From: Sporopachydermia quercuum
Taxonomy: Eukaryota; Ascomycota; Sporopachydermiomycetes; Sporopachydermiales; Sporopachydermiaceae
Direction: 5' to 3'
Assembly: GCA_001599295.1 (NCBI GenBank)
Contig: BCGN01000006.1
Location: 620,001-684,000 of the forward strand
DNA: 64,000 nt
Shown here: one piece after another, positions 48,410-60,265 of the stretch
Layout: each line of letters opens with the position of its first letter
How positions within the stretch are numbered: position 1 is the stretch's first letter
Position numbers and translations under genes: made by a program
The notes under the pieces: generated by a model
Database searches by the model: none
The model's input: the letters and a program-made list of their open reading frames with translations, nothing else
What the model was told of the DNA's origin: nothing

Positions 48410-49111
48410 TCAGTTGAAACTATCTTGTAAAAGTCTTAATGTTAAGTTCTTAGGTAGACCTACAACAGAGCTATAATCGCCGAATACTCTTTTCATAAGC
48501 AGTCCGCCAATCGATTGGATTTTATAACCTCCAGCAACAAACCAACCTTCTTGGGTATTCACATATTGTTGAAGTTGATCGTCCGTCCAGTTATCCATTT
48601 CCACGATTGTCTTCTCAACAGCTTTTGATACTTTTTCGATAGTCCCCTGCTCATTTGACTTTATCACTACTACTGCTGTCATTACTATATGTCTACTGAC
48701 AGAATCAGAGTCACCATTAGTAACTACAGCTGAATCAAAAGTTGATTGCTTGATCCTACTTTTATAGATATCTTTCAACATATTAAACTGTTCATTTGGT
48801 CCTCCTGGTTTCTCAAATATTCTCTCCTTACCATCTATTATTCCTACTACCACTGTGTCTGATGATACTATAAGGGTCTTCCTACCATTGTTTCCATATC
48901 TTTTGCTTACCTCTAGAGCTTTCTGATAGGCAGTCTGTAGAACATAAGTATCAGCTTTTTGTTCCTTTGAAAGGTTTTCCTCAAACAACGATGGGAATAT
49001 CGTTGGCTGAATACCCATTTCCTCTAGTATAGCTTTTCGTCTAGGTGACTGAGAAGCAAGTAGAATGTCATACTGAGTTATCTGAGGGATGAATGACTCA
49101 ATGAGAGACAT
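48410..49111 (-). CDS. Maf-family nucleoside triphosphate pyrophosphatase (YOR111W type)
   Basis: House-cleaning enzyme that hydrolyses non-canonical or modified nucleoside triphosphates to monophosphates. 233 aa. The N-terminal signature LLASQSPRRKAILEEMG and the catalytic SSDTVVVG are clear, followed by EKPGG (the loop that takes EKP in this family) and GGYKIQSIGGLLMKRVFGDYSSVVGLP at the C-terminus, where S. cerevisiae YOR111W and bacterial Maf share GxYxIQGxGxxLI. Cytosolic, with no targeting signal seen. ATG at 49111 immediately precedes the conserved region. Confidence 0.9.
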   Translation of the reverse strand: MSLIESFIPQITQYDILLASQSPRRKAILEEMGIQPTIFPSLFEENLSKEQKADTYVLQTAYQKALEVSKRYGNNGRKTLIVSSDTVVVGIIDGKERIFEKPGGPNEQFNMLKDIYKSRIKQSTFDSAVVTNGDSDSVSRHIVMTAVVVIKSNEQGTIEKVSKAVEKTIVEMDNWTDDQLQQYVNTQEGWFVAGGYKIQSIGGLLMKRVFGDYSSVVGLPKNLTLRLLQDSFN

Positions 49112-50665
49112 TTCGAAGAGATTATCGCAGAAATTGCTGTACAGAGATATACGTTGATAGTTGCATATAATAGAATTATATTAAGAAATATTGCTGAGTT
49201 ATTTAGTTGGTTGATATGTTATCTGAAAAGGTATCAATTGATCTGCGTAATAGCTTCTGATACTTATACTGATTCGTACCAAATGACTTCTTAGGTACTA
49301 TCACATCAAGTCAATGTCAACATCTGCAAACATGGTATAATGTCAGTATGAGCAATATCACAATTTCCTCTAATATTCCATTGTCTTTAAACTATATCTT
49401 CCTCTAGAAAGACAATCATAGAGAATATATTTTTATTTCAAGCAGGCAAAAGCTGGTTAATATACTTGATTACCACACGAACATGCATGGTCATGCATTC
49501 GTCTCAAAGTCCAAACTTAATTTTAACTACATCGAGTATTATATGATCTGACCACACTTGTATCATGTTTACTACGCTGTTTCTTTAGATGCTAAAATCA
49601 TGTTTTTTATTATATTCATATTTAATTAATAAAGGTGGGGAACATTTTGATTTATATATATCTGGACGATTATACCAATAAAATAAAGTTTATAAATTAT
49701 GCATATATATTAACTTTAATAATTTGGACATTACTTTGCATAACATTGCATGAACTTGGACACTTTCTTCAGTACATAACATGCGTGGACAAGTTCTCGT
49801 TCTAATCGTCTATTTATATCGAAGAGGATAATCAGCAATAGTCTTATCCAATACTTGAATGAATATTGTGTTGACCCTATCGTGACTTACATGTTTACTG
49901 AGTATTTAATGAAGGATTTGATGATTAAAAACCAAAGTGGGATTCTGGGGGAATGTTAATATGGGGTTTTAGTGCTTTTACGGTAACTTGTGATTTATCA
50001 CGAGAGAGATAATATCATTTCATAAACCTGTCTGTTATCCATATCAATTGACCAATTTGATCTCATCAACTGTCTTGCTATTGCTATAGTTCTATGATAA
50101 ATTGATCAATTAAATGTATACAAATATAAAAGATCCGCTGAACTCTCGTGCTTTATTATCATGATGCTTATAATCTAATAGAACATTTGATTTATCATCA
50201 TAGGTTCATACTTCTTTCACTGAATTGAATACCCATTCAGCTCAGGTGACCTTATCATTGGTAGGTTATCAACTTTGGAACTGATATTTACAATGTCTAC
50301 TCATTTTTGTCCACAAGAAAATACTCCTGGCACTCATTGTACTACAATATCAATAAGTTCGTGGATTCATGTTATTAGTTTATTAGTTAGATCTATCTTA
50401 TTATCCAATAAATTGTTATAAAGCTCAGTCGATGGTAAAAAGTAGATAAACACTACTCATCTGGCTGATCTGATGATATCAAGTAATTCAAATTGGTTGC
50501 CATTATAGTCATTTGGTAGTTAAATAATTAATACCTTGTTGATCATATTAGATGAGAACCCAACTTGACTTGAATTGATTAGATGAGTGTAATTAATATG
50601 TATAGTGTATGATAATTTGTTGTGTAATATTGTGTTGTGTTGCGTTATGTTATGTTACAGCTATA
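49112..50665. other. 1.55 kb intergenic region between the Maf gene and CYB5
   Basis: Promoter of the Maf gene and 3' flank of CYB5. No other gene is supported. A GT/TA-rich run lies near 50616-50657. Confidence 0.5.
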
Positions 50666-51453
50666 TCAAAAGAACAAATAAGCGAAAAGGCCAACGACGC
50701 CAGCAGCAATCAAATACAAGACAAAGCTGATGAAAAGAATAGTTGTTAGTATTTAACTTCAATAGCCTGTGAGGTAATTACTATTCAAATTAAGTGACAA
50801 CTTACTAGTTCTTGCTTTCTCCTTCAATCACATCAACACCAGTAGCAGCAGCCTTAGAAGATTCGGTGGGCTGTTGATAAAAAACTGTTAGTAACAATTA
50901 TGTAATAAATGATACTTTCGATAACAATAATAAACAGTATTTGTAAGAGTAATTGTTGATAGATTGTTAACAAAGCTTTACCATGAATATTAAATACTTA
51001 CTTTAGAATCAGGAACAACACCAATAAGTAATGGTTCTAACATTTCTCTGGCATCTTCAGAATGTCCAATATCCTAATAATTTGTTAGTAGTTTGGTAGG
51101 AAACTTCTAATATCAACAATTGCTTCGTTCTCCAGAAACTCTTGTCCTCTTCATTTGTTCTGTGCTGCAAAACTTACTTCAAAAGCATCAGTAGCATCAA
51201 CTCCACCGCAGTCAATCATAACCTCTTCTCCACCACTGTCAAGCAAATAAGTTAATAAATAATCACCATTTGACCATTAAAACCTAAATAAAAATATCAA
51301 CTTCTCTGTCATTTTTCAATCGTCATTCACATACGGATGTTCATCAAGGAAGGATGTGGTGTCGTACACTTTTCCATTAATCACCATCCACAAGTCATCC
51401 CTGGTGTTATGCTGGGAAACTTCTTCAAATGTAAAGATTTTTTCTTCGGCCAT
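50666..51453 (-). CDS. CYB5: Cytochrome b5, tail-anchored, five exons
   Basis: ER heme protein that donates electrons to lipid desaturases and hydroxylases and to some P450s. Exons 51453..51335, 51235..51178, 51073..51002, 50870..50806 and 50726..50666 give 124 aa (S. cerevisiae 120). The heme domain includes [13 protein letters not shown] and the first heme His in FLDEHPGGEEV; the second lies in [14 protein letters not shown] short polar linker leads to a C-terminal anchor ([19 protein letters not shown]). Intron 4 begins inside a Tyr codon so that unspliced RNA reads AAC TAG, stopping just before the anchor. A 5' UTR intron (51767..51468, CTAAC branch) is also likely. All exons are too short for a simple ORF search. 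In S. cerevisiae this gene adjoins NOP15. Confidence 0.94.
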
Positions 51454-51467
51454 TTTGAAATTGAGAT

Positions 51468-51767
51468 CTATTTACAATGTGTTAGTTTCTTTCAAATGCA
51501 AGCAGTTGGTGCCAATGACAAGATACTATCATACGATTATATCAGTATGCTACTCATAAAACGCGAATAGTACCATGGGAAGTGTAAAAAGATTCAATAA
51601 ATATCATTCGATGACGGTTTTAATATACAAGATGGCAACACATAAACCTATTACTGTTTTCTTCTTTTCTCTTCAGCATAGAATCAATCAGTCGTCAGCT
51701 AACCTGGCCAATCAGCTACCTAACATTCATTCACCTTATGCATTCCTCTTCCACTATACTTACTTAC
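51468..51767 (-). other. Probable 5' UTR intron of CYB5
   Basis: A GTAAGT donor at 51767 and an AACTAAC branch with TAG acceptor at 51468 frame a 300-nt interval ending 14 bases before the CYB5 ATG. No ATG lies in the roughly 120 bases just upstream of the donor, consistent with an untranslated first exon. Inferred from splice motifs only. Confidence 0.5.
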
Positions 51768-54302
51768 CGTATGATACAAACTAGCAATCAACTAAACAAC
51801 TGACGAGCAGAAAATTTCCTAGTAGACCTAACCCACAATTGAATAAAGAAATGATAAGTTCTATGAATTCAAATCAATACTTCTATTGCATTAAGATCAG
51901 CCAGTTTTCTCAATTTTATAATTAAAAGACAACATCTACCCTATCAGTGAAAATAAAAAGTTAACTTGTGTATCAATCAAGTTTGATCGGATGTCGAATA
52001 TTTCACTGTCCGGAAGGAATGGGAAAAAGTTTACTTAATTGGGAAAGGAAAGTGGAGTCGGACAAAAAGTCCCAGGACCAGAAGGGTAGTGATATTGGGC
52101 AGATAGAGATACAGAGGAATGTGATGGCTATGGTTGGTTATATGACAACGATTAAGATATTTGAGGGAAAAAATAGTGCATGCATTGTAGAGTATTGGAT
52201 TAATTGGACGTTCATTGTTTTTGAAAAACCACAATGAAAAGCCAATGTTGTATGAAGATTGATATTTCTTAGTTCAGTACAATTGGATTGACATTGATCC
52301 GATAAGACAGAGGACACTTGTAATAGTAATATCTGGTCTCCAAGTTCAACGATTTATTACTTACAAAACTATCTAGGCTAGGGTTCGAAGTAAGTGTCCA
52401 ATTGTTCCGATTGTTAAGTTCTTGAGCTTAATTTGGTATAGCCTTCAAGATTTAAAACGTAGGAAATGTGGGTTTACCTACATCGGTAGTTGATATGAGA
52501 CCAGGAATGATTTTGTTTCGCATACAATAGCTTTCGCAATCTTTTTACAGTTTGTTTTATTTAATTTTGATTTATTTCTTGAGTGAGAATTAAAGGAATA
52601 CTTGACTTCCACAGCAGCGATTTAATAGAGCGCAGCTAATGTGAACATGGAAAGAAGAATATTGATTGAAAGAGAACTTTGCTATTGTCGGATATTAGGT
52701 ATTTGAATCATATCCTCTATCTTTTCTCTCTGTACCCTTCATCAACGGCTGCGCTGGTCAATTGTCCGAAGCATTTCGTTTCATAGATTAGCCTTATATA
52801 AAATCTCATTTAGTTAAGCAACACTCCTCATGTATATTTAATCATAATTGTATATAAATACACTTTGTCCTCTTTCACTAATCACCAACAGGTGTGCGCT
52901 TTGCTTGATAATATTCACGATCTACAGATTCTCCCTCGTAGAACATTACTTGCTTCTCAGCCAATGAAACAGGTCGGGAAATTGCTTATGGAATAGCTTT
53001 GTCCGTCAAATGTTTGATTAATATTACTTATTTGGGCAAGATAGGACATAGAAAAAGGACCCCATCCTAGTCTAGGAAAGTAAAACAAACATTCTTAAAA
53101 TGAGTAATGATTATCCCAAAAATGAAGGTGGGGGGAAAAGACCTACGTTTTATTTGCTGTTGAGATTGTAAGATGAAGGATTATTCTCTTGTGCGAGCCC
53201 GATTTCAATAGTGCAATTGCTGATATCTCCTACTCTTAATGGTTTATCATCAGTTATCTTACATATACCTCTCGCTGTATGGACAGCAATACTTTCGGAC
53301 AGAGACGGTTTATCAGAACTGCTATCAAAAATTACTAAACATAGAAATTGAATACATTGTAAAAGATGAAGTTTCTTTATCTACAGCTACAATTTTTCTC
53401 CCCCATTTTCCATCATTTCTTTTCCCTGTTCCTGAAAACTGATAAAGCCATGTTCAACTGTTGATATTTGCTTTTCCCTTTTATGGGCAAAATATCCCCC
53501 GTATGGACAGTGTACACAACCGAATTAATCATTTATAACCGGACAGTAGTTTGATGGAAGTTTGAAGCAGTTTGTTCGTGAAACAGTTTCAAACTATACT
53601 ACCACTTTTCTCAAGAAGTGGAGAAGTATATTCTGTTATGCATAAATAATATTGACAATTTGATACTAGTGTACTCAAACTCTTTATTATTTTGAGATTC
53701 TGACTTCAACAAACACAGTTCAATAGTTGTAAGTCTTTCTCTCTGGACAAGAAAATAAAGTTCTTTTTATGCATAAACCTGCATCATCAATTAAACTTTA
53801 CCTATTATTTGATCATATAATCGCTTGCTAAGTTTTGCTTATCTCCATCTTTGTTTCCTAAGCGAAGTGAGAATCTGTTAAGAGCAATGTTATTGATTCC
53901 TATCGTAATACAAATGTTACTGTTTGGAACTTACCAAGTTTCATATTAGGATTCAATATTAAAAATGTCAGAAACCGGTTGATTTTTTGGTGGCAGCGCA
54001 TTCTGGCTGTATTATGATCTGCTGGGAGGATAAAAAGAGTCAAAGGCGAATTACAGTGAGCACTACCAAAACCAGTATATGGATATTAAATCAGATGGAA
54101 TGAAGCTTTTGCTTGAAAAAGACTATTATTGAAAGCTCAAATTGATATTTTGACTAGCCAATTGCAGTCGGAAACTCTGGTGTAAACGCTTTAAATCCTA
54201 TAAATGCTACAATGTCCAAACTATGACTGTCTGACCGATTAAATTATATCCTATGGTACATCATATTCAACTCTGAGCAATTCCCACGTCGTACTAATCT
54301 AA
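51768..54302. other. 2.5 kb intergenic region between CYB5 and the arylsulfatase gene
   Basis: No supported gene; the frames at 51968-52237 (GTG start) and 53239-53442 have no recognisable features. The whole interval, together with the arylsulfatase, separates two genes that are neighbours in S. cerevisiae. Confidence 0.5.
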
Positions 54303-55973
54303 TTATTTATATACAATCCTTGGATCATAAAACTCTGCTAAATTATTGTAAAACACATCTTGACATTCGACCAAGCCTGTTTCAGAAACATATTCACTCC
54401 AATGTCCAACAAGATTCTCGAGGACTTCTGGCTCCTTCTCAGCAAGATCAGTAGTCTCACCAGGGTCTTCCTTCAAATTGAATAACTGCCATTTGTTAGG
54501 TCCCAATGGTTCAGGAATGAACAAAGCCTTGTATTTACCCTTTCTCAGTGCTTGTTGAGCAAATAATTCCCAANCAACAATTGTTTCATCTCCATAGATA
54601 GTAACTGAATTACCTCTTAAATAAGGAACCCAAGATTTACCTCTCACTTTAGCAACTTCTCTTCCTCTGAATTGGGTACCAGGGTGATCAACACCAGCAA
54701 GTTCTAATACTGTAGGTAAAATATCCATAACAGTGTTGAACTCCGAACTAATGGAACCCTTTCCAAAGACATCATTCAGACCTGGATATCGAAGAATCAA
54801 AGGGCATCTAATTCCACCTTCTGAAGCCCAAAGTTTATACATGAAAGAAGGGGCAGTTGCAGCTTGCGCCCATTGATCTGAATAGTGTACAAATGAATCC
54901 TTGTTTCCAATATTCTCAAACCTATTATTATAATGTTTCATTACGTTGCCAAATGCCTTATCGTGTAAGGGTAAGGCTTCCAACATCATACCTTCAGCTC
55001 CATTGTCCGACATGAATACAATAAAAGTATTATCTAGTTCATTTAACTGTTCAAGTTTCTTGATGACTCTGCCAATATTAGTATCAAGGACTTCGATCAT
55101 TGCAGCATAAACTTCCATGATTCTGCTCTCTGTTTTTCTCTCATCTTCACTCAACTCAGTCCATGGCTTTCTGCCTTGACTAATAACTTCGTGAGGAACA
55201 ACTCCTTCAGGAACAATGCCTAATTTAACAGCATTGGCAAGTCTTTTTTGTCTTAATTCACCAGGACCATCGTCATAGACACCCTTGTACTTCTCAATGA
55301 TTTCCCGTGGTGCTTGATACGGCCAATGAGGCGCAGTGTAAGTGAGAGCACCAAAAAATGGTCTATTGTTTCTCTTTTCATGATCAATAAATTCTATAGC
55401 CTTGTCGGTGAAGTAATCTGTTGTATAGTAATCATCTGGTAGATCTTCGGGATCAAACTTTTCACCATCGGATTCGAACAAAGGGGGTAAAAAGTTTAAG
55501 TATTCACCATTTTCTTGTCTGGGAAAATACTTATAGTGATTTCCAGCCCCAGGAAGTAAACTGAACGTTTTCTCAAATCCTCTTTTAGATGGCCAGAAAG
55601 GTGGCAATAAGCCTAAATGCCATTTACCAGACAAGAAAGTATAGTAACCATTATCGTTTAAGATTTCTGGTAAAGCAGCGACTCTGAAGTTCAAGTATCC
55701 TTCATAACCAGGTTTACCATCGAAAAAGTCTTGAACGAATCCTCTAGCTTCGTTCATTTGGCCAACTCCTGCAATATGGTTATCAGTACCTGAGAAAAGC
55801 ATTGATCTTGTTGGAGAGCAAGCAGAGGCAGTGTGGAAATCGGTGAACCTGATACCATGTTTTGCTAGTTTTTCGATATTCGGGGTATTGATTTCACCGC
55901 CAAAAGCGCTGGTATCAGTGAATCCCAAATCATCCACAACGATAATAAGGAAGTTTGGTTGCTGTTTAGTCAT
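54303..55973 (-). CDS. Bacterial-type arylsulfatase, Cys-type, cytosolic
   Basis: Sulfate-ester hydrolase of the alkaline phosphatase superfamily, likely to free sulfate from organic sulfate esters. I use the ATG at 55973 (556 aa); the frame is open upstream only from a TTG. It follows Pseudomonas aeruginosa arylsulfatase AtsA along nearly its whole length: PNFLIIVVDDLGFTDTSAFGGE with metal-binding D14/D15, FHTASACSPTRSM with C52 as the residue to be oxidised to formylglycine and R56, GKWHLGL, APHWPYQAPREI, FMSDNGAEG and KLWASEGGIRCP. All catalytic positions I can recall are kept. No signal peptide is present, so it should be cytosolic. It sits between CYB5 and NOP15, which are adjacent in S. 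cerevisiae. One N falls in a codon in the C-terminal third. Confidence 0.93.
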   Translation of the reverse strand: MTKQQPNFLIIVVDDLGFTDTSAFGGEINTPNIEKLAKHGIRFTDFHTASACSPTRSMLFSGTDNHIAGVGQMNEARGFVQDFFDGKPGYEGYLNFRVAALPEILNDNGYYTFLSGKWHLGLLPPFWPSKRGFEKTFSLLPGAGNHYKYFPRQENGEYLNFLPPLFESDGEKFDPEDLPDDYYTTDYFTDKAIEFIDHEKRNNRPFFGALTYTAPHWPYQAPREIIEKYKGVYDDGPGELRQKRLANAVKLGIVPEGVVPHEVISQGRKPWTELSEDERKTESRIMEVYAAMIEVLDTNIGRVIKKLEQLNELDNTFIVFMSDNGAEGMMLEALPLHDKAFGNVMKHYNNRFENIGNKDSFVHYSDQWAQAATAPSFMYKLWASEGGIRCPLILRYPGLNDVFGKGSISSEFNTVMDILPTVLELAGVDHPGTQFRGREVAKVRGKSWVPYLRGNSVTIYGDETIVXWELFAQQALRKGKYKALFIPEPLGPNKWQLFNLKEDPGETTDLAEKEPEVLENLVGHWSEYVSETGLVECQDVFYNNLAEFYDPRIVYK

Positions 55974-56817
55974 CGTAAACAAGTTGCTTCACGAAATAAT
56001 CAACGAAAAATTAATCTACTAAGATACANTCCTGAGAAGAGTAGAATCAGTGTATCAAACAAAAATCAATCATCTCAACTGATCCAGCTCATGTAGAGGA
56101 ATCAACCATCTCTACAGTGGCAGCATGGTATCCATAAATATACAATCAACCAAAGAGAGCATCCATTACCGACAACTCCTACGTAGATGAAAATGTGTTC
56201 AGCATTGAACACTTCGTTATTCAAATCGCCGAAATAAAACAAACAATTAAGAACAATTTAGGAAAATGGTGTTGATACAAGCAAATTCACGTGATAATTT
56301 CTGGTTTAAAAGGGATAAGGGTCAATATTATTATAGACTGTGTAGCGAAGATCTCCACTGTCGGATTTTCGGTATTATGAAGCATGTCACATCTTCCATC
56401 AATGAACTCTAGTATTAACCTAGACAAATGTAATGTGTGGCTTTTATTACACATATTACTTATAGCATTAGAAACTGTTAGTATACCTATTATCCTTTCG
56501 TTTGTATATGTATATATGTATGTATTTAGATAGATTCTCAAGGATTAGAGTTAGTTAGTGAAAATCACACTTCATATCTGCTGTTACATCTGTTATTGGA
56601 CAAAAATATTGTTATTATGGGAAACTAAAAAAGTGTAAGAAATAAGAAGAATGAGAGGTGATAGATGAAGAGAGGGATCTCTCGTTTAATAGTAATCACT
56701 GTTGAAAAAAAGACTTTGCTAATAGATTCTACAGCATATTTACTGGGTTCTATGTGATACTAAGTAAAATGCAGTTTCATAAGATTGAAGATACAGTTAT
56801 TGAATAATACATAGAAA
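55974..56817. other. Intergenic region between NOP15 and the arylsulfatase gene
   Basis: Holds the sulfatase promoter and the NOP15 3' flank. A frame at 56287-56541 on the minus strand has no recognisable features. Confidence 0.5.
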
Positions 56818-57756
56818 TCAAGTCATCAGAGATTCATCTAGTTTTATACCCATTTCTAACAACTTCTCGAAACGACTCTTACGTCTATCAGCTTCTTTCC
56901 TTTTTAGAATATCAATTTTTGCCACAGATTTCTTTGAATCGTTTCTGAACTTTGAAATGGATTTCCAAGGCAAAACTTTGAATTTTTCATTAGAGCCAAT
57001 GAACATCTTCTCGATATAAACGTTGAAATCTTCTTCTGTCGATACTGTCTCAGGAGTGACCAGATTCACTTTGAGAATATGTCCAAACAATAGGTAGTTG
57101 TTCATTGTTTCCGCAGCGACTTTTGCAACTTCAGCATCTTTAAATTCTATGAAAGCGTAATGTTTTGGCTTACCAGTTTTCTTATTACGTGAGAGTCGAA
57201 GTCTTGCTATTTCACCAAATTGTCCAAAATAGCTTTTCATCTATGAGTATTTGTTAGTATGAGTCGATCAAACAAATATAATTTTCAGCGATCATCATTT
57301 CAATATTATACCTACTTCTTTTTCATAGAATCCATGAGGTATCCTGCCTATATAAATAACACCACGCTTATCTGATTTAGCATTTGGTTTTTTTATTTGA
57401 CCTTTCAACTTCTTCATTTCTCGTTCATACTCTTCGGCATTGATACCGCTGATCTCCTCTTCCTCTTCCTCTTCTCCATCTTCTTCTTGATCGTCATTTA
57501 ATTCTTCTTCTTCTTCTTCTTCTTCTTCTTTCTCTTCTTCGTCTTCTCCATTGTTATTTTCATCATTCTCGTTCTCACTTCCACTTTCGTCTTCATTTTC
57601 ACTCACTTCATCATCGGTACTCTCAAATCCTGCAAATTCCTCATCTGACACTTCAACCTGTTCGAAATCTTCTTCTTTCGCTAGTTGAGCTTTGGCTTTT
57701 GCCTTAGCCTTAGCCTTTACTTTAGCTTGAGCTTGAATACTTCCTTTAGGTGCCAT
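56818..57756 (-). CDS. NOP15: 60S ribosome biogenesis RNA-binding protein Nop15, two exons
   Basis: Nucleolar RRM protein required for ITS2 processing of pre-60S particles. Exons 57756..57316 and 57240..56818 give 287 aa (S. cerevisiae 220). The 75-nt intron cuts the RRM in phase 0 between FYEKE and MKSYFGQFGE, and the joined sequence aligns without a gap to S. cerevisiae FHEKELSKYFAQFGD. Its donor is the unusual GTAGGT, with TACTAAC as branch site. The RRM has RNP2 GVIYIGRIP and RNP1 KHYAFIEF. The N-terminus is an Ala/Lys-rich stretch followed by a long Glu/Asp run coded partly by a pure GAA repeat. CYB5 lies on the same strand, as in S. cerevisiae (YNL111C/YNL110C). Confidence 0.94.
57503..57530 (-). 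repeat. GAA trinucleotide repeat coding for poly-Glu in NOP15
   Basis: About nine uninterrupted TTC units on the + strand (GAA on the coding strand) within the acidic N-terminal part of NOP15. Such repeats commonly vary in length between strains, in steps of one Glu. Confidence 0.85.
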
Positions 57757-58169
57757 TGCAACTGTGTATCGCCTATATCTGTTTATTATCTAAACACTTC
57801 ACTATTCCCCAATACAATATCAATTGTTTCGTTTACTAATAAATCCCCTGTTTCAACTTATATAATCCTTCGACNTAAAAGAATAAATAGTTTAGCTCCC
57901 GTGCTATTATCTTACTCTAAGCTGAACATAAACTTCTTTCTCATCTACTACTCCTGCTAAATAAAATTTTTGATAGTAATATAAAGCCCTGTTCCGGGTA
58001 ATGAAACTTTACATAGTCTAATCTCCACATAGTAGTAGTAAATAAGGAGAAGACAACTCCATCCATTGAGAAGAATCCTCCAGATGAAAAGACGAAAGCC
58101 TATGAAAAAAATATTTCATAGGGGAAAACGTAAAAATACAAGCGCAAAAGAATTAATTTCAAAAAAGAT
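57757..58169. other. Intergenic region, NOP15 to tRNA-Gly
   Basis: NOP15 promoter side. A near match to the RRPE element (TCAAAAATTT on the minus strand, near 57963-57972) lies about 210 bp upstream of the NOP15 ATG; one base differs from consensus. Confidence 0.4.
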
Positions 58170-58239
58170 GCGTCAGCCCGGAGTCGAACCGGGGGCTCTT
58201 CGATGGCAACGAAGAATTTTACCGCTAAACCACTAACGC
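58170..58239 (-). tRNA. tRNA-Gly(GCC)
   Basis: The minus strand folds as a tRNA: acceptor stem GCGTTAG/CTGACGC (one G-U pair), D arm with GTGGTTTAGCGGT, anticodon arm CTTCG-TTGCCAT-CGAAG with anticodon GCC, and T arm CCGGTTCGACTCCGG. It differs only modestly from yeast tRNA-Gly(GCC). No intron and no encoded CCA. Confidence 0.96.
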
Positions 58240-58926
58240 TTATATGCTGTTCTCACGNTATTTGACTATTAGTATAGATATTAGTGAGAGAATGTTTTTC
58301 TCTAACCGGAAGATAAACAAAAGGAATGAGTGTCTGTTATAATGACGGCACAAAGTTGATAGATACTTGTTAGTTAAACTGGACTTCTATCAATTTAATA
58401 AATCAATTGTGTGTTCTAGTTATAAATTTGACANTTCTCCGTGCAACCAGTGCTTTGAAGAGTAAGTCAAGCGGTAAAGCAGTCCAGAAAGTCTATTAGT
58501 AGGTAAGAAGCATAAGCATCTGTTTCTTTCTCTTCTTTCTTACTACTTGATTTCTACAAGCTATGGGGAAATGGATCAAAACGTTCCTGATAAAAGCAGA
58601 TAATTTCAATAAAACACTTGCATAGGTTTTACTCTAATTATCAACAATACCCTTTTTCATCTAAGTGTTTTCTTAACTGTTTGTTCGCTGCTGATTGAAG
58701 ATTGGCTGATCTAGGTCAAACGATGTATGATAGAAACAGTCTGATTGATAGGATAGTTGTTGGGCAATCAAGTAGAATATTCAATCAACATGTTTATTAG
58801 TTGAGTCAATTCTATTTTGCCTTATATTCATTTTCTTCTGTATGATCTCATGACTGCCAAGCAACTATACTCTAGTGTTCTGTTCATATCAACATTCATA
58901 TATCTATCTATTCAGAACTCAGACCT
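58240..58926. other. Intergenic region, tRNA to SLX1
   Basis: Upstream side of both the tRNA and SLX1. Two single Ns lie here. I see no additional gene. Confidence 0.5.
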
Positions 58927-60265
58927 ATGTCGCAATCATTAACGAAATCTGTGATTTCATGCTCTGATGCTTCAGCAAAAGGGAAATCAAGGAAGATCCA
59001 TAAAATCCTTAATAAATCCATACATAACTCGGTCTTTCCTCCTTTTTACTGTGTATATTTATTACAGTCGGTTGCTAAACCCAGATCATTTTATATAGGA
59101 TCAACAAATGATCCGGTAAGAAGGTTAAGGCAACANAATGGTCTTATTAAAGGAGGAGCGTATAAAACGAAAAGAAATGGATGGAGACCTTGGAAAATGA
59201 TTATTAATGTATGGGGATTTCCGTCAAAAGTATCTGCGCTTCAATTTGAGTAAGTATTGATGAACTGATTGCAAGTATTGGTATGATTATTCTTATGTAG
59301 ATGTTTATTTACAACTTCAATTAACATTTAACATAGGCATGCATGGCAACATCCACATTTAACAAGACTGATTCCAAGCGAAGATAGAATAATCAAAAGC
59401 CAAGGAAGAAAACTGAAAGGAACACGATCATTGGATAATCATTTAGGGAATCTTCGTCTGTTACTAAGAAATGAGCCGTTTTGTAGATTGGATATGACCA
59501 TTCGTTTTCCGAATACTAATTTAGGTCTTGATACGCTTGAAAACAAAGCAGTAAAAGAGAAAACGATGCCAGAAAATGATAGTCTTGATGATAATGTAGC
59601 TGAAAGTGCAACCGATGAACATCTGACTGACAGCCACGAGTCTAATGAGTATACGCCTAACAAAGTGAATGATTTCAATCGAAACGTTTACGATAAATGG
59701 ATAGAAAACAAATATAAAATCAAATGCTCTCCGGGGATAAAAATTGATTTTGAAGCTATTAATAATACTCAAGGTAAGTAGTATCAAGTGAATGCTTGAA
59801 ATTATTGTTGATTATTTCGAGGACTTCGAAATTAATTACGTGAATGATGTAATATACAAGTACCTTTTTTGATTGATTCTAACAGCTAGTTCAGTTGATT
59901 CTCGNGTTGTCAATAAAGTAGAACATATTATAAATATGGTGAATATCTCTGCTTCTCATAAATGTTACGGCTGTAATGATGAGGTTACTCCTGTCAACTT
60001 TATTGCATCCTGTACAAGTGCAACCTGTTCATATCTCTGGCATTTGACTTGTCTAGCACAGTATCTAAAGGATCATAACAGTAGCAGTGGCAATAGAACT
60101 TCAAACAGTCTACAACAGATAATACCTATCAATAATTGTTCTTCAAGTAGTTCTACAAATAAGTCTACAAATGATTCGACAAATATTTGTCCATGTGGAC
60201 AAATATTTGTTTGGAGTAAAACTGCTCAAATTTCAGAATATGTTTATAGTTATTTCAATCAGTAA
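58927..60265 (+). CDS. SLX1: Structure-specific endonuclease Slx1, three exons
   Basis: Catalytic subunit of the Slx1-Slx4 nuclease, which cleaves branched DNA such as flaps, forks and Holliday junctions. Exons 58927..59249, 59337..59773 and 59895..60265 give 376 aa (S. cerevisiae 304). The GIY-YIG nuclease domain begins [28 protein letters not shown]; the C-terminal RING/PHD-like domain has [21 protein letters not shown] and CPCGQIFVW. An acidic Asn/Asp-rich linker lies between. Exon 3 could instead start at 59886, since two acceptors nine bases apart keep the same frame. A perfect 15-bp inverted repeat overlaps the last Cys codons. SLX1 is convergent with ROT2, 214 bp apart, as YBR228W is with YBR229C. 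Confidence 0.94.
60179..60210. repeat. Perfect 15-bp inverted repeat inside SLX1
   Basis: Arms 60179-60193 (ACAAATATTTGTCCA) and 60196-60210 are exact reverse complements around a TG centre. Each arm itself contains the 12-bp palindrome ACAAATATTTGT. The repeat encodes the CPCGQIF part of the zinc-binding domain. Confidence 0.95.

Follow-up and report, generated by a model that had tools for sequence, protein, structure and literature searches.

A likely cytosolic arylsulfatase of fungal ancestry, with a second gene copy, between CYB5 and NOP15 in Sporopachydermia quercuum

A 64-kb stretch of contig C6 of the yeast Sporopachydermia quercuum (the window) carries a gene for an AtsA-type sulfatase between homologs of CYB5 and NOP15 (Table 1). 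We consider it likely that the product is a cytosolic S1-class arylsulfatase that scavenges sulfate esters under sulfur control, and that the window copy is a lineage-specific duplicate. Building on what is read from the sequences (family, fungal ancestry, a second copy, the active-site residues, and an N-terminus too short for a leader peptide), we propose that the enzyme would hydrolyze sulfate esters in the cytosol, so that their sulfate could be assimilated whenever preferred sulfur sources run short. In catalysis, residue 52 would act together with a divalent metal ion, and Cbf1/Met4-type factors would act via an upstream CACGTG. Duplication within the yeast lineage would have brought the window copy between CYB5 and NOP15, and Cys52 would either be converted to formylglycine by a cytosolic route other than the known ones or act unmodified.

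Table 1. Positions of the sulfatase genes, their neighbors and related elements (window positions unless a contig is given)
Feature	Position	Strand	Basis
CYB5 homolog, start and first introns	50920..51453	-	cytochrome-b5 match; extent given is the 5' part of the gene
AtsA-type sulfatase CDS, 556 aa, no intron	54303..55973	-	frame reading, structure and Pfam matches
CSPTR signature, C52 to R56	55806..55820	-	counted from the frame; Cys52 codon 55818-55820
TCACGTGA, putative Cbf1-type site	56287..56294	.	CACGTG 315 bp upstream of the sulfatase start
NOP15 homolog, two coding pieces, one intron	56818..57756	-	domain and protein matches, intron reading
Sulfatase paralog, 75% identical to the window copy	C3:31453-33123	-	own-genome search
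BDS1-like alkylsulfatase	C3:18375-20321		PF14863 and metallo-beta-lactamase domain

The sulfatase gene is a single unbroken ATG frame, followed by a stop under the standard code; codon 467 contains one ambiguous base. Single N bases occur at 38 positions of the window, this codon included, and the paralog also has one; they are possibly unresolved heterozygous sites. The product scores 184.4 bits against the Pfam Sulfatase domain (curated cut-off 25), and its top match among solved structures is Pseudomonas aeruginosa AtsA (1hdh; E 5.9e-186, residues 4–539), bearing out an earlier claim, made in a first-pass annotation of the sequence, that the likeness to AtsA runs along the whole protein. 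A predicted model (pLDDT 78) resembles 1hdh with a TM score of 0.86 at 52% identity; the active-site loop (residues 51–80) was modeled with low confidence, and therefore no geometry is claimed. All ten residues that we take, from work on AtsA, to be catalytic and metal-binding are present (D14, D15, C52, R56, K117, H119, H216, D323, N324, and K380), as that annotation had held for the catalytic set. The same ten are conserved in 80/80 near bacterial relatives in the alignment and in each covering row among 204 non-bacterial database homologs. The sulfatase signature C/S-x-P/A-x-R, in the wording of the part of PMC6189696 drawn on here, appears as CSPTR at residues 52–56, so the Cys form of the active site proposed earlier is present in frame. 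On this evidence, the window gene encodes an S1-class sulfatase with an intact catalytic and metal-ligand set, for which aryl-sulfate hydrolysis is predicted.

The conserved PNF block of the window protein starts after five residues. Among the 204 non-bacterial homologs, 184 have at most 12 residues ahead of this block, 16 have 13–40, and four have more. So short a stretch makes a leader peptide improbable, and the sulfatase should be cytosolic. Two CTG codons of the gene sit at columns that are mostly Leu or Ile in 14 relatives, and CUG is therefore probably read as leucine in this yeast.

Formylglycine has been demonstrated for P. aeruginosa AtsA, and the first-pass annotation had asked how Cys52 would be matured in a yeast. 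A six-frame genome search for the FGE domain (PF03781), which reads exon by exon in a genome that may be incomplete, gave no matches and no candidates even in a loose first look. When the same search was run on 30 bacterial genomes that hold an AtsA relative (those of 30 of the 80 bacterial loci), 29 of them gave FGE-domain proteins; because the FGE domain also occurs outside true FGEs, this count is an upper bound. The exception, Neisseriaceae bacterium JH1-16 (L019), has a Cys-type AtsA relative and no FGE-domain match in an assembly that may be incomplete. Five radical-SAM matches were found in the yeast genome, with MoaA, LipA, BioB, ELP3, and TYW1 as best models (the TYW1 match scoring below that model's cut-off), and none of the five is of the anSME type. 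The MoaA-type molybdenum-cofactor protein (C5:314222-314704; L009), a type that to our knowledge is lacking in S. cerevisiae, suggests the presence of a molybdoenzyme such as nitrate reductase. The maturation puzzle therefore stands in that neither an FGE nor an anSME-type protein was found, but this gene is not alone in posing it: judging from the parts of the review by Linder (2018) drawn on here, it is a real problem, general to fungal arylsulfatases and already in print.

Catalysis by unmodified Cys52, in which the fungal enzymes work without formylglycine and perhaps slowly, is a serious possibility to which we assign a little under even weight. The same parts of that review describe fungal arylsulfatases as apparently without formylglycine and note that the Kluyveromyces lactis enzyme has been characterized (Linder 2018). 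In the portion of PMC6189696 used here, an unmodified choline sulfatase from E. meliloti achieves many turnovers, though slowly, and the failure of the FGE and radical-SAM searches to find a known maturase points the same way. However, the whole CxPTR motif, and not Cys52 alone, is kept in 202/202 non-bacterial homologs covering the site and in 80/80 near bacteria. If fungi had a cytosolic Cys-to-formylglycine route independent of FGE and of radical-SAM enzymes, selection for it would have kept CxPTR unchanged in the fungal AtsA-type sulfatases examined; we regard such a route as unlikely. In the same portion of PMC6189696, the machinery with which E. coli modifies Cys-type sulfatases is described as not identified. 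A human Cys-type sulfatase produced in Pichia pastoris needed, according to the part of PMC4932491 consulted, no added SUMF1 to show activity, which rose up to 1.8-fold when SUMF1 was supplied, a result that fits a basal yeast route and unmodified activity alike. Finally, an FGE gene could have been missed through introns, divergence, or an assembly gap, given an exon-by-exon search of a possibly incomplete genome. This is very improbable: the loose look gave zero candidates where 29/30 bacterial genomes were positive, and a sulfatase without a leader peptide would not meet an FGE located in the ER, as the animal enzyme is.

Turning to the second copy, the paralog lies 31 kb from the end of contig C3, and the only other Sulfatase-domain match in the genome is a partial domain within a 960-aa frame (C8:825446-825754). 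Around the paralog, C3:14–41 kb holds four TauD dioxygenases, the BDS1-like alkylsulfatase, which accounts for the one PF14863 match in the whole genome, and MFS transporters. Within this region, sulfatases of two unrelated families lie together at C3:14638-33123 (L007, L004, and L005). TauD has 16 matches genome-wide, four of them at C6:1404360-1424048, at most 31 kb from the end of the window's contig. Apart from a single 21-base match at E 0.29, the two sulfatase copies align over the coding region alone, and a shared duplicated flank was accordingly rejected.

Most likely, the window copy is a duplicate that arose within this yeast's lineage. Unique changes in the window copy outnumber those in the C3 copy with each of three near outgroups (47:29, 48:32, and 49:31; chi-square 3.2–4.3) and less so with two distant ones (35:31 and 34:25; chi-square 0.2–1.4). 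The contig-end copy, having changed less, may be the likelier parent; this is a weak indication of the direction of duplication, as the rate difference is small with the distant outgroups and the copies have no common flanking DNA. Alternatively, the sulfatase between CYB5 and NOP15 could have been there first and given rise to the contig-end copy, or the pair could have been acquired from another yeast. The mixing of yeast families near the window pair in the gene tree lends this some plausibility, but the excess of unique changes in the window copy with near outgroups speaks, as a weak argument about age, against the window copy being the older one, and on balance we hold this alternative to be somewhat unlikely.

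The window copy would lie in an unusual setting, CYB5 and NOP15 being given in the first-pass annotation as adjacent in S. cerevisiae. The CYB5 frame matches cytochrome b5 (E 5.9e-10), and its GT..AG introns were read by eye. The NOP15 frame encodes an RRM protein whose strongest match is a putative RNA-binding protein (E 1e-29), with Ribosome biogenesis protein 15 entries among the matches (E 2.1e-18). Its intron, at about 57241–57315 with a TACTAAC site, was likewise read by eye, its 5' end being placed approximately. The earlier description of an intronless sulfatase between two intron-bearing genes is thus accurate: the sulfatase frame is uninterrupted and introns can be read in both neighbors. 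Between the CYB5 start and the sulfatase stop lie about 2.85 kb (51454–54302) with no convincing gene. Compared with the yeast's own genome by a search that leaves simple repeats and high-frequency words out of account, 51600–54302 matched only itself, and a repeated element there was rejected on this basis. An Rfam scan of 49000–60000 (E up to 0.1) found no RNA family between CYB5 and the sulfatase, ruling out a known RNA family in this gap; its sole match was a tRNA at 58169–58239.

Both sulfatase copies have a CACGTG upstream, that of the paralog at 459 bp, from which control by Cbf1/Met4-type factors may be inferred; CACGTG is described as the Cbf1 site in the part of PMC13170222 drawn on. 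Two more lie 272–290 bp upstream of TauD genes. The motif shows no overall enrichment in the window (4 observed, 4.6 expected), and C3:1–50 kb holds 4 against 2.4 expected. A CACGTG within 500 bp upstream was found at 4/7 organosulfur genes versus 1/22 others (Fisher p 0.007, in a test chosen after the cluster was seen), the other three of the seven having none within that distance. This pattern agrees with the published sulfur regulation of Candida arylsulfatases. In the sources as consulted, two arylsulfatases of C. parapsilosis depend on Met4, and C. albicans AYS1 is up under sulfur limitation with its promoter bound by Met32 (PMC13170222). Control of the window gene through the Met31/32 element CTGTGGC was rejected: its promoter has just the short core TGTGGC, once, out of 18 occurrences in the window.

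As for ancestry, the top database matches of the window protein come from Suhomyces, Ambrosiozyma, and Yamadazyma (67–69% identical), and among its best 120 matches all those with an organism name are fungi. A search from distant fungal members retrieved, among others, Penicillium, Colletotrichum, Trichoderma, Ascobolus, Ustilago, Kwoniella, Gonapodya, and Hyaloraphidium, with a single named bacterium, a Pseudomonas, among its best 120 matches. Homologs thus span yeasts, other Ascomycota, Basidiomycota, and chytrid-like fungi. An IQ-TREE analysis used 92 of 242 rows under LG+G4, without a mixture model (likewise for the AU-test trees), with the far row L097 on a long branch. The duplicate loci L094, L127, and L154 and the short or partial matches L118–L123, L136, and L143–L153 were not made rows, and the 204 non-bacterial rows include database proteins without an organism name, part of which the trees placed. 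One branch (98/100) set apart a fungal set of 55 of the 92 rows, made up of the window pair, 39 named fungi, and 14 rows without an organism name. The window sulfatase and its paralog were sisters (100/99) inside a 45-row clade (100/100) whose named members are all yeasts.

A FastTree analysis of 148 rows, comprising the 92 earlier rows and 56 of the 86 new proteins from the distant-member search, again gave the fungal grouping (109 rows, support 85). Its coarse fungal order places basidiomycetes with chytrid-like fungi, then filamentous ascomycetes, then Pezizomycetes beside yeasts. The database protein P0327 was counted as bacterial in this tree because it fell beside a Pseudomonas. In an earlier FastTree, from which 6 of the 40 far rows were removed for being too short or missing the signature residue, group labels required extra changes, arising in part from near-type rows labeled far and from window rows counted apart from fungi. 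Families are mixed in the yeast part of the gene tree, with Suhomyces and Clavispora, Ambrosiozyma and Brettanomyces, and Cyberlindnera all near the window pair, which implies past duplications, losses, or yeast-to-yeast transfers. The fungal clade lies inside the near bacterial rows in the IQ-TREE result but beside them in the 148-row FastTree (support 83). These conflicting placements neither demonstrate nor exclude that the ancestor of the fungal clade exchanged the gene with bacteria long ago.

The first-pass annotation had suggested a horizontal gain from bacteria or an unusual retention. A recent gain from a bacterium, in this yeast or its near relatives, might seem to follow from the resemblance to AtsA and from an intronless gene in an unusual place, but it is exceedingly improbable and, at present sampling, already refuted by the sequences: the closest matches are yeasts, the gene is nested among fungal sulfatases in both trees, a tree forced to join the window pair with 30 near bacteria (a grouping picked after the tree was seen) is worse by 176 log units (p-AU 1.3e-5), the genome holds another copy, 75% identical, in a different place, and GC3 (31.6%) falls within the 29.8–35.1% of nine neighbors, showing no foreign base composition. 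Absence of introns was rejected as a mark of bacterial origin, yeast genes being usually without them. As evidence against its own view, the annotation had named a place inside a vertically inherited fungal sulfatase clade together with a shared gene order in related yeasts; the tree half of this is what the analysis gave. By its relatives, the window gene is itself an ordinary fungal arylsulfatase from an enzyme family old in fungi; the annotation's observation is confirmed and its interpretation partly supported.

Comparison with known systems draws on parts of PMC5857272, PMC11502921, PMC13170222, PMC6189696, PMC4659905, PMC5066984, PMC4932491, and PMC10025432. P. aeruginosa AtsA, assigned to class S1_4 in the part of PMC5066984 consulted, is like the window protein in full-length match, fold, signature, and metal-ligand positions, whereas the window gene, at about 52% identity, belongs to the fungal clade. 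The K. lactis enzyme, C. albicans AYS1, and the C. parapsilosis arylsulfatases are of the same family, and a K. lactis-named row falls in the same 45-row yeast clade as the window pair. The Candida enzymes are sulfur-regulated in the sources consulted, whereas for the window gene such control is proposed here; this yeast differs in having two copies, one beside CYB5 and NOP15. The BDS1 alkylsulfatase of S. cerevisiae, reported as gained from bacteria in the part of Linder (2018) drawn on, would share the scavenging role but belongs to the metallo-beta-lactamase family, not PF00884, and has its own separate counterpart here on C3.

These results sharpen a question about fungal sulfatases: a cytosolic family keeps the formylglycine motif unchanged in the fungal homologs examined, in a genome where no known maturase was detected. 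The alternatives are an undiscovered formylglycine route or chemistry by an unmodified cysteine. Should the former be true, this yeast, with two sulfatases and no detected known maturase, would offer a host for discovering the route.
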